A program made the position numbers and the translations under genes. A DNA stretch of 64,000 nt, from positions 62,001 to 126,000 of the forward strand of contig NZ_JARUKV010000010.1 of NCBI RefSeq assembly GCF_029688865.1, read 5' to 3'. The DNA is from Natronococcus sp. A-GB7 (GTDB lineage Archaea > Halobacteriota > Halobacteria > Halobacteriales > Natrialbaceae). Within the stretch, counting starts at the first letter, position 1; every line of letters starts with the position of its first letter. Positions 49,610-51,924 of this stretch are shown in pieces. Below the pieces are notes generated by a model. It was given only the letters and a program-made list of their open reading frames with translations, was not told the origin of the DNA and searched no databases.

Positions 49610-49827
49610 GTGTTCGATTCGAACGACACGCCCCAGTTCCATAGGGGCGGCTCCAAATTTGCTAGCACCGTCAATAGAGAAAGTATCGCTGTGTTACATC
49701 CGATGCCGTAACGACGACCGAGAATCCGTTCCACTTCGGCCTCGGAATCCGGGTCGCTCGAGGTGTCAGACGTCCCGAGTCGACGATCCGGGTCTCGAGC
49801 GAACGGATACCGCCCCAGTGGGGCCGA

Positions 49828-50292
49828 TCAGTCGTCGGCTTCGGTCTCGAGCCGGAACTGCTCGTTTTCGGAGACGGCCTCGAGGACGATACTGGTGTTC
49901 GATCGGGTAAGGTCGGGATCAGTGATCAGGGCCTTGATCTGGTCGTTCATGTCGTCGGTATCCTCGAACTTCCCGATCGCGATGATATCGTAGTCGCCGG
50001 TAACCTCGTAGACGGAGACGATCTGATCGTGATCCCGAAGTGTGGACGTGATCTCCGAGAGGGCGCTTCCGTCCACTTTGAGCTGCATCACGGCGGTCAC
50101 GTCGTATCCGGCGGCGGCGTAGTCGACGACCGGTGTGTATCCCTGGATGACGCCCTCCGCTTCGAGGTCAGAGAGGTGGTTCGAGACGGTCGTGACGGAG
50201 ACGTCGAGCTCCTCGGCGAGGCTCCGAAGGCTGGCGCGTCCGTTCTCGAGCAGTTCGTTTACTAGATCCGTATCGAGGTGTTCGTAGGCCAC
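49828..50292 (-). CDS. Lrp/AsnC-family transcriptional regulator
   Basis: A 154-residue Lrp-type regulator. N-terminal winged HTH (residues 1-50, [21 protein letters not shown]) and C-terminal RAM/ASNC ligand-binding domain ([20 protein letters not shown] ... [19 protein letters not shown]). I chose GTG 50292: it gives a family-like start and a TATA-like element (GTTTAGAC, 50317-50324) is centred 28 bases upstream. The upstream open frame is not family-like. Confidence 0.92.
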
Positions 50293-50316
50293 TGCGTAGT
50301 ACGATCTCTCCACTCC

Positions 50317-50324
50317 GTCTAAAC
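50317..50324 (-). promoter_or_regulatory. TATA-like box of the Lrp-type gene
   Basis: On the minus strand GTTTAGAC is centred 28 bases before the GTG at 50292, in a locally AT-richer stretch. It supports a leaderless transcript starting at this GTG. Confidence 0.4.
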
Positions 50325-50568
50325 AGTTACGAACAGTCAGTTTTTCGCCCTCGTATTTGAATTTGCAGTTACCTCCGGCGACTACCCGTTGCCGTTTTGA
50401 CGAGACGTCCACTCGAGCCGATCTGCGTTCTCGCGCACAGCGGCCGATGGGTGTACGGCTCCGGCCCCCTGACACCGACCTGGCGGGACGGCACCTCGCT
50501 TCGCCCACGGCTTCGCTGCTCGCGTTTGGTGGGACCTGCTCACAGCCCGTTCGTCCCCGAGTCGTCGA

Positions 50569-50964
50569 CTGGACTTCGGACAGATTCGAGCGACGCTCGA
50601 GAACGTGCCCGCTTTGCTCGCAGAACCCCGGTCCAGTTCGAATCTGTCGTACCGATCCCCGACGGAACGATGATTCGCTTCGCTCGACAGTTCGTTTCCT
50701 CGGAGATGGGTTGGGGCAGATTTGGACCACGGTCGTTCCGCTACGCTCCACTCCTTAGCTCGAACTACCGACCGTTTTTGACGACGCGGACTCCTCGCGC
50801 TGCTCGTCGTCGTTGTGTCGTCAAAAATGGGTTGGGGCAGATTTGAACCACGCCGAGACGGTCTCGCTCGCTCCCTGCGGTCGCTGCGCGAGTTGCGACT
50901 CGCCTAGTTCAAACTGCCCAACGTAACGAATTTGCTGCTCGCGGATTGCTCGCAGCAAAATTAG
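50569..50964. repeat. array of partial tRNA-Val 3'-end copies and hairpins
   Basis: The 17-base string TGGGTTGGGGCAGATTT, the 3' end of the neighbouring tRNA-Val, occurs at 50707-50723 and 50828-50844 as well as in the tRNA itself (50965-50981). Each extra copy is followed by an inverted, degenerate T-arm copy (50756-50773 and 50905-50922). Between units lies a perfect 11-bp inverted repeat TTTTTGACGAC / GTCGTCAAAAA (50775-50785, 50817-50827). A weaker third unit is near 50576-50650. These look like repeated insertion or duplication products at the tRNA gene. Confidence 0.75.
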
Positions 50965-51039
50965 TGGGTTGGGGCAGATTTGAACTGCCGACTTCCTCCG
51001 TGTGAAGGAGGTATCATAACCGGACTAGATCACCAACCC
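50965..51039 (-). tRNA. tRNA-Val (CAC)
   Basis: On the minus strand a 75-nucleotide cloverleaf folds. The acceptor stem is GGGTTGG / CCAACCC with discriminator A. The anticodon arm is CCTCC-TTCACAC-GGAGG with anticodon CAC, which reads valine codon GUG. The T arm is GGCAG-TTCAAAT-CTGCC. No CCA is encoded. The 3' flank starts CTAATTTTGCTGC and forms a hairpin with a T run, fitting termination. Haloarchaea usually have several tRNA-Val genes. Confidence 0.95.
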
Positions 51040-51117
51040 GCATCCCGTGATATCCGTGCGCTCGACTTAAGCCTTCCTTTCACTTCCGGCTCTCGAGGCC
51101 CCGCGTCGCTCGAGCGA

Positions 51118-51651
51118 TCAGTACTGTGGGGCTTCCTCGGGTTCGCCCTCGCGCTGGTTGACCAGCCGGGCGAACGTGAACAGCCCGTCCGAGAGGCGGT
51201 TGAGGTACTCGACGGTTCGTTCGTTGATCCGCTCGCTCGAGGCCAGCCCGACGGTGCGGCGTTCGGCCCGCCGACAGACCGCGCGGGCGTGGTGAAGCCG
51301 AGCCCCGTGATCGCTGCCGGTGGGCAAAATAAACGAGGTCAGGGGCTCGAGTTCCTCGTCGTACTCGTCGATCCAGTCCTCGATCGTCTCGACGTGGTCG
51401 GCCCGGATCTCGGGGTCGTCCTCGTCGGGATCGGGGTTCGCGAGGTCGGCCTGGACGACGTGGAGGTGGTTCTGGATCGTTCGCAGTCGCTCGTCGACGT
51501 CGTCGTACCCGGTGGGACGCACCGTGCCGACCAGCGCGTTGACCTCGTCGACGGTACCGTAGGCCTCGATCCGCGGATCGGTCTTCGAGACGCGAGTCAT
51601 GTCCCGGAGGTCAGTCTCGCCGTCGTCGCCGCGACCGGTGTAGATCGCCAT
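51118..51651 (-). CDS. cob(I)yrinic acid a,c-diamide/cobalamin adenosyltransferase (PduO-type)
   Basis: A 177-residue ATP:cob(I)alamin adenosyltransferase that makes adenosylcobalamin. The ATP-binding signature YTGRGDDGETDL is at the N-terminus. Characteristic motifs are RIEAYGTVDEVNALVG, FILPTGSDHGARLHHARAVCRRAER and YLNRLSDGLFTFAR. The ATG at 51649-51651 (MAIYTGRG) is chosen to fit the family. No other cobalamin gene is adjacent. Confidence 0.96.
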   Translation of the reverse strand: MAIYTGRGDDGETDLRDMTRVSKTDPRIEAYGTVDEVNALVGTVRPTGYDDVDERLRTIQNHLHVVQADLANPDPDEDDPEIRADHVETIEDWIDEYDEELEPLTSFILPTGSDHGARLHHARAVCRRAERRTVGLASSERINERTVEYLNRLSDGLFTFARLVNQREGEPEEAPQY

Positions 51652-51731
51652 GTCGGGATCGACGGACGGTTTGCACTTAACTTCGCCGTCCACGGCGGCG
51701 ATCGGTCGCCTCCGCTCGCCCGAATCAGTAC

Positions 51732-51739
51732 GTTAAACA
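51732..51739 (+). promoter_or_regulatory. TATA-like box of the CPxCG zinc-ribbon gene
   Basis: GTTAAACA is centred about 28 bases before the ATG at 51763, suggesting a leaderless transcript. Confidence 0.4.
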
Positions 51740-51762
51740 CGCTCGATTCGGTAGTGGCCGGT

Positions 51763-51924
51763 ATGGCCCTGGAACTCGACCACGAGTGTCCGAACTGCGG
51801 GGAGAAGACGTTCTACCGCGCCGCGAGCACGACGGTACACCTCGGCGAGAAGGTCAAGTGGCACTGTCCGGACTGCGACTACGGCTTCGTGCGGATCAAC
51901 GGCATCGACTCGAGCGCGGCCTGA
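51763..51924 (+). CDS. small CPxCG-type zinc-ribbon protein
   Basis: A 53-residue protein with C9/C12 (ECPNCGEKTFY) and C35/C38 (HCPDCDYGFVR), a classic single zinc beta-ribbon. Between them lies TTVHLGEKVKW. Such microproteins are abundant in haloarchaea and some affect growth, biofilm or motility; this one's role is unknown. It is 135 bases ahead of the NADK-fusion gene. Confidence 0.85.
   Translation: MALELDHECPNCGEKTFYRAASTTVHLGEKVKWHCPDCDYGFVRINGIDSSAA

Follow-up and report, generated by a model that had tools for sequence, protein, structure and literature searches.

In the 64,000-nucleotide stretch of Natronococcus sp. A-GB7 DNA that we analyzed (contig NZ_JARUKV010000010.1, positions 62,001 to 126,000; here called the window), the tRNA-Val(CAC) gene on the minus strand is followed on its 3' side by three tandem units, each of which closes with a copy of the last 21 nucleotides (nt) of the tRNA. 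The units belong to a family that is class-wide and class-specific to Halobacteria, and in which the copied tail belongs to the target tRNA and not to the element. We observed anchoring of the family to tRNA genes, direct and inverted copies derived from the target, and a G53/T54 junction; we also observed empty and occupied sites, replacement of one hairpin (B) beside an unchanged other (A), polarity within arrays, and compensatory changes in the hairpins. On balance we favor, with modest confidence, an enzyme-driven, T-loop-directed insertion of small, gene-less, folded cassettes at tRNA ends that duplicates the tRNA end.

Array and family in the Natronococcus sp. A-GB7 genome

Read in the sense of the tRNA, each unit runs from hairpin A through an inverted copy of the T arm and hairpin B to the direct copy of the tRNA 3' end. 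The features of the array are as follows.

50964..51039, minus strand: tRNA-Val(CAC) gene (ARAGORN; Rfam tRNA, 60.5 bits)
50965-50985, minus strand: copied stretch G53-N73 of the tRNA, GTTCAAATCTGCCCCAACCCA, 21 nt, template of the unit tails
50927..50963, minus strand: unit 1 hairpin A (TAATTTTGCTG-CGAGCAATCCGCGAG-CAGCAAATT), fold z -2.4 (DNA) and -3.0 (RNA)
50907..50921, minus strand: unit 1 inverted T-arm copy (TTGGGCAGTTTGAAC), with tRNA-specificity demonstrated at the level of the family
50849..50906, minus strand: unit 1 hairpin B (GAGTCGC..GACCGTCTCGGCGTG type)
50828..50848, minus strand: unit 1 direct copy of the tRNA 3' end, 21/21 match
50775..50827, minus strand: unit 2 hairpin A, with an 11-bp perfect inverted repeat (TTTTTGACGAC / GTCGTCAAAAA) as its stem
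50758..50770, minus strand: unit 2 inverted T-arm copy, decayed (CGGTAGTTCGAGC)
50728..50757, minus strand: unit 2 hairpin B (GGAGTGGAGC..GGAACGACCGTG type)
50707..50727, minus strand: unit 2 direct copy of the tRNA 3' end, 20/21 match
50656..50706, minus strand: unit 3 hairpin A, degenerate (by sequence inspection)
50636..50648, minus strand: unit 3 inverted T-arm copy (GACAGATTCGAAC)
50592..50635, minus strand: unit 3 hairpin B (GGACCGGGGTTCTGCG..GTTCTCGAGCGTC, the CCGAGGTTC type, found class-wide)
50570..50591, minus strand: unit 3 direct copy, the last of the array, decayed by one insertion and several mismatches

The original prediction, made from the sequence alone, had reported copies of the tRNA-Val 3' end 121 and 137 nt apart, an inverted fragment for each copy, and an 11-bp perfect inverted repeat. 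The spacings are exact, the fragments are the T-arm copies listed above, and the repeat is real, being the stem of hairpin A in unit 2. Both of its extra copies are real as well, and the interval that it described also covers the third, decayed unit. The copies do lie upstream on the plus strand, as had been stated; with respect to the minus-strand tRNA this is the 3', downstream side.

Unit 1 folds better than its shuffles (z = -5.2 as DNA and -6.0 as RNA; equaled by 0 of 200 shuffles), and the loop of its hairpin A carries a conserved motif, CGARCAA..CGYGAG. Unit 2 as a whole folded no better than shuffled sequence, which fits decay of this unit, while its hairpin A by itself folds better than shuffles (z about -1.5 and -2.7). 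The decayed copy at 50570-50591 matches the polarity of the 54 arrays described below. Chance repeats are ruled out by the repeats of the array, their genome-wide recurrence and the fold z-scores of unit 1. A search of 49800-51900 against Rfam (E <= 1) returned nothing beyond the tRNA and chance matches, with no known RNA family and no rtT among them. We note that a mechanically called minus-strand open reading frame of 307 aa (49828-50751), encoding an Lrp/AsnC-like regulator, is over-extended into the array; its true start is probably near 50294.

When 324 bp of the array were compared with their own genome by BLAST, the other matches lay only beside other tRNA genes, 3' of tRNA-Val(GAC), Lys(TTT), Gly(TCC), Ser(CGA) and Val(TAC), and a weak match at C6:73107 fell about 70 nt beyond a tRNA (C6:72962-73036). 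Reading every tRNA gene of the genome, we found at least one unit at about 23 of 44, and at these genes the tail of each unit is the 3' end of its own tRNA; the search beside other tRNA genes that the original prediction had proposed was in this way productive. Ser(CGA) carries four units, Phe three, and Gly(GCC) two identical units of 144 bp.

Several tails in this and related genomes depart from the pattern. At tRNA-Thr(TGT) of the same genome (L041), a solitary copied tail stands 8 nt past the tRNA, where a sister species holds a full unit; it looks like the deletion remnant of a unit. The tails at Lys, Ala, Arg-CCG and Phe unit 3 differ by one changed or inserted base within the T-loop (GTTCANAATC), at L003 and L011 of this genome, L276 and L289 of G248, and L300 and L243 of G366, as if the copy were barred from a T-loop role or from serving as a new target.

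Tail origin and hairpin structure

The tails tie each unit to its tRNA. An exact 12-nt B end followed by GTTCRAATC occurs at 62 places, representing 20 tRNA species. A tRNA lies 71-426 nt upstream of 60 of these places, and the remaining two fall at locus edges, where one (L359) shows the end of the preceding tRNA. At the 60 testable places, the next 12 nt agree with the local tRNA at 11.15 of 12 positions, compared with 6.43 under permutation of the tRNAs, where the highest of 2000 runs reached 7.27. Across 147 first units, the match of copy to tRNA sets in abruptly at G53 and drops off past N73; the plateau between is partly conditioned by the search, but its edges are not. By alignment, then, the copies derive from the local tRNA, and the derivation on which the original prediction had staked its case holds even though some sister genomes have a single tRNA end.

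The inverted copy is tRNA-specific too (summed score 1052, against 816 +/- 15 when permuted), and its T-stem positions exceed permutation both overall and within one fixed B type. Its match is looser than that of the direct copy and in most cases ends at the acceptor stem. The units measure 67-212 bp before the copied tail and have no genes inside. We found no terminal inverted repeats, the ends of a unit matching at 5.38 of 12 positions as against 5.30 between different units. A duplication extending past the tRNA was considered but not adopted as the rule: at Thr(TGT) the element and the flank share 13 further nt, but the Lys, Tyr and Arg sites do not.

Hairpin B consists of an outer stem, an asymmetric internal loop, a second stem, often with a T.T mismatch, and a variable tip; the inverted T-arm copy pairs with the direct one to form the outer stem. 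For the second stem, a set of 28 sequences from across the class has 39 cells changed on both sides, compared with 12.2 in shuffles (0 of 500 shuffles reached this value); since the search pattern constrained the outer stem, that stem is uninformative for compensation. In hairpin A, matching arms flank CGARCAA..CGYGAG, again with compensatory changes. Taken alone, the compensation in stem 2 is compatible with either RNA or single-stranded DNA as the folded form. G.T pairs mildly outnumber A.C mismatches in the stems, part of this excess coming from mis-anchored hairpins.

Distribution and turnover

The motif ATTTGAA N37-67 GTTCAAATC is present in 339 of 392 Halobacteria genomes and 80 of 86 genera, whereas a reversed-pattern control gave essentially no matches; at all 30 loci fetched from this search, a tRNA adjoins the match. 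Such pattern counts overlook variant units, and the comparisons use one genome per species. In one search with a slightly longer pattern, matches were found in 35 of 43 Halobacteria genomes and in only 4 of 204 from other classes of Halobacteriota. An exact 21-mer from one B end (TTCTCGGGCGTRGTTCRAATC), searched across 84,980 species, was found in 58 stretches, all of them haloarchaeal. Among viral sequences, three B-end patterns gave 0 matches in IMG/VR and the array gave none in phage records; a looser, earlier viral pattern scan did give matches, most of which would be expected to arise by chance, given the length of the pattern. Two plasmid matches were both to megaplasmids, one of them being the cobO-tRNA-Val(CAC) locus itself.

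Three further observations deserve mention. In Natronorubrum bangense, the orthologous cobO-tRNA-Val(CAC) locus and its units (L310, NZ_CP031306.1:200211-205374) are on an 828-kb plasmid record and not on the chromosome record. At tRNA-Lys(TTT) of Haladaptatus sp. DYF46 (L357), three tandem units with an exact 111-bp spacing and perfect tails are followed by a fourth, decayed copy, which makes this array a good candidate for recent activity. In a complete genome of the same genus, several tRNA matches of near-identical score are dispersed (G132:C1 at 821011, 1286616, 1700740, 2436424 and 3770334), possibly tRNA copies on mobile elements.

Comparison of related genomes revealed turnover. At Val(CAC), units are present in 6 of 9 Natronococcus species and lacking in 3, and copy number per tRNA ranges from none to four. 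Clean pairs of empty and occupied sites were found in Natronococcus at Thr(TGT) (L302 and L277), Tyr (L033 and L281) and Lys(TTT) (L270 and L003/L300), and in each the flank resumes after the copied tail. Elsewhere, sister species share the same hairpin A with a different hairpin B, as at Val(CAC) (L202/L204), Val(GAC) (L215/L216) and Ser(TGA) (L277/L302). Similarity of hairpin A is 0.54 within a tRNA type, 0.35 between types and 0.25 for shuffled sequences. Arrays are also polarized: in 54 arrays of at least two units, the last copy is on average 1.95 nt more diverged (p = 1.2e-7), a pattern to which homogenization of the inner copies could contribute. At Ser(TGA) in G366 and Natronococcus jeotgali, and also in Natribaculum breve (L326), the distal copy reads GTTCGAATC where the tRNA reads GTTCAAATC, as if these distal copies kept an older T-loop allele.

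Proposed insertion mechanism and rival explanations

In the explanation that we favor, a cassette made of hairpin A, the inverted T-arm copy and hairpin B would be placed directly after the intact tRNA, and insertion would leave a copy of the last 21 nt of the tRNA, from G53 at the start of the T-loop to N73, on the far side of the cassette. Units would stack by repeated insertion or by tandem duplication, and the newest would therefore lie beside the tRNA while the farthest decay. The enzyme may recognize the folded hairpins together with the T-loop; its likeliest identity would be a tyrosine recombinase, chromosomal or acting in trans, for which the T-loop serves as the site of crossover, and the chemistry would be either conservative exchange or duplication of a staggered target.

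To compare candidate enzymes, four families were profiled in 23 unit-rich genomes and in 23 genomes without pattern matches, the latter being defined by the lack of one exact pattern. Cas1 is absent from 12 of the 23 unit-rich genomes, Y1 transposase from 5, and reverse transcriptase (PF00078) from all 23, and each was rejected as a required enzyme. Because tyrosine recombinase domains (PF00589) are present in all 46 genomes, these recombinases are the sole tested candidate able to act everywhere. A 772-aa frame at L320 with a weak integrase match, examined on account of the published BAT-type fam30-04 family, was also set aside, as only mechanical open reading frames overlapping an acyl-CoA synthetase-like frame were found there.

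A number of observations weigh against this explanation. Integrases are just as present in the genomes without pattern matches, and the integrase genes beside occupied sites that the original prediction led us to look for did not appear: none was seen at unit-bearing sites, and none of the 10 integrase-domain genes of this genome has a tRNA nearby. If a conservative integrase brought a tRNA tail of its own, moving from one tRNA to another would be difficult, because that tail must fit each of them; duplication of a staggered target would explain such movement, but 21 nt is long for a target duplication and terminal inverted repeats are absent. Simple insertion leaves the tRNA-specific inverted copy unexplained, and selection for pairing or fold-back copying is needed as well. 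Gene conversion could be an alternative source of the B swaps and the homogenized inner copies. Finally, we saw no excised circle and no active transposition.

We also compared the units with known systems. The tyrT/rtT repeats of E. coli follow a tRNA gene as a tandem array of 100-200 bp repeats that each contain the 3' end of the tRNA, and rtT is known from a single tRNA, in enterobacteria. The likeness is one of layout; the haloarchaeal units differ in forming a class-wide family at 20 or more tRNA species and in having an inverted T-arm copy and two hairpins. The units are anchored at one site, as integron cassette arrays are, and their folded hairpin, in which an unpaired spacer precedes a GTT junction and the tip varies, resembles attC. 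The attC R box consensus is GTTRRRY; the GTTCRAA of the units appears not to fit this box, though a folded site with an asymmetric loop is present. The units lack cassette genes, and no IntI or attI was seen in a search with the PF00589 profile.

The T-loop is one of the tRNA sites that archaeal integrases use (PMC8371274), and genomic islands are marked by displaced tRNA ends (PMC4383910); in both cases the elements carry genes. The units resemble such elements in the T-loop junction, in a tRNA left intact or regenerated, and in the displaced tRNA 3' end on the far side, but differ from them in having no integrase, no genes, the same ends at 20 tRNA species, and a stacked arrangement. The PATEs of Haloquadratum are small and gene-less, with near-terminal palindromes, no terminal inverted repeats and no target duplication (PMC3119063); unlike PATEs and other IS200-IS605 derivatives, the units have a 21-nt target-derived copy, and some unit-rich genomes lack the Y1 transposase. 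Casposons make a 14-15 bp duplication at tRNA ends (PMC6977970) and have terminal inverted repeats and Cas1. Insertion with duplication at tRNA 3' ends and polarized arrays are points of likeness to casposons and to CRISPR adaptation. The lack of terminal inverted repeats separates the units from casposons and from miniature elements derived from DDE transposons, and the longer duplication and the patchy presence of Cas1 separate them from casposons. No compared system agrees with the units on every tested feature, and we therefore filed them under none.

The main rival to insertion is that the units are selected tRNA-trailer structures, with hairpins A and B having a role at the transcript or DNA level (in termination, protection from read-through, tRNA 3' processing or as a small RNA) and mobility being incidental. 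They would spread by gene conversion between tRNA genes and multiply by unequal crossing-over at the 21-nt repeats. We regard this as unlikely, yet deserving of serious attention: compensatory changes in B stem 2 and in A, conserved unpaired positions (the T.T mismatch and the asymmetric loop), occurrence in 80 of 86 genera with strict placement after tRNAs, T-runs where A begins, and the perfect 144-bp tandem duplication at Gly(GCC) are all in keeping with it, and the excess of G.T over A.C leans toward folding of the tRNA-sense strand. However, whole units are missing at the same tRNA in sister species whose flanking gene is about 91-93% identical, about half of the tRNA genes are unit-free while others have up to four copies, and no Rfam family matches.

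The original prediction had suggested scars of successive integrations or, alternatively, independent small elements. Empty and occupied sites, polarity and duplication of the tRNA end do support successive insertion at the tRNA. That each insertion was an ordinary virus, plasmid or integrative element leaving a displaced tRNA end is improbable: such ends are the usual mark of tRNA-targeted integrases (PMC8371274, PMC4383910) and the T-loop is a known integration sub-site (PMC8371274), but the intervening DNA is one homologous hairpin family with a common A/B anatomy over many genera and not a set of random element ends, it is short and gene-less, and viral contigs and phage records yielded no match to its ends, the plasmid matches being megaplasmids and the sites free of visible integrase genes. 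The notion of independent small elements was nearer the mark. We find very little to recommend integration of the casposon or CRISPR kind, in which a Cas1-family enzyme would duplicate the tRNA end as a repeat; polarized arrays with a decayed distal repeat do recall CRISPR arrays, but 12 unit-rich genomes have no Cas1 at all, the units have no terminal inverted repeats, and the 21-nt duplication begins within the T-loop. Hardly credible, too, is retro-insertion, in which tRNA-trailer RNA would be reverse-transcribed and then inserted at the tRNA. The unit begins right after N73, the mature tRNA 3' cut site, which may suggest such a route, and fold-back copying could yield the inverted copy, but no unit-rich genome contains PF00078.

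Building on insertion of folded cassettes, we tentatively put forward a bolder possibility, which we hold to be rather less than probable: that the units are a new class of self-stacking mobile cassette, in which a Halobacteria-wide enzyme would read the folded hairpin ends and the universal T-loop, insert at any tRNA, and copy its tail in direct and inverted form, with arrays growing as CRISPR arrays and integrons do. A search of the openly accessible literature, with subscription papers outside its reach, found no description of the family, which is apparently a widespread and undescribed family of miniature elements. tRNA genes are classic docking sites of mobile DNA, and in one haloarchaeon about every second of them carries this family. 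Its arrays are a natural record of tRNA-end insertion in which distal copies can hold older T-loop alleles, as at Ser(TGA) in Natronococcus, and they raise the testable question of which enzyme joins one hairpin end to twenty tRNAs exactly at G53/T54. If transcribed, the units would constitute a new structured trailer on many tRNA transcripts.
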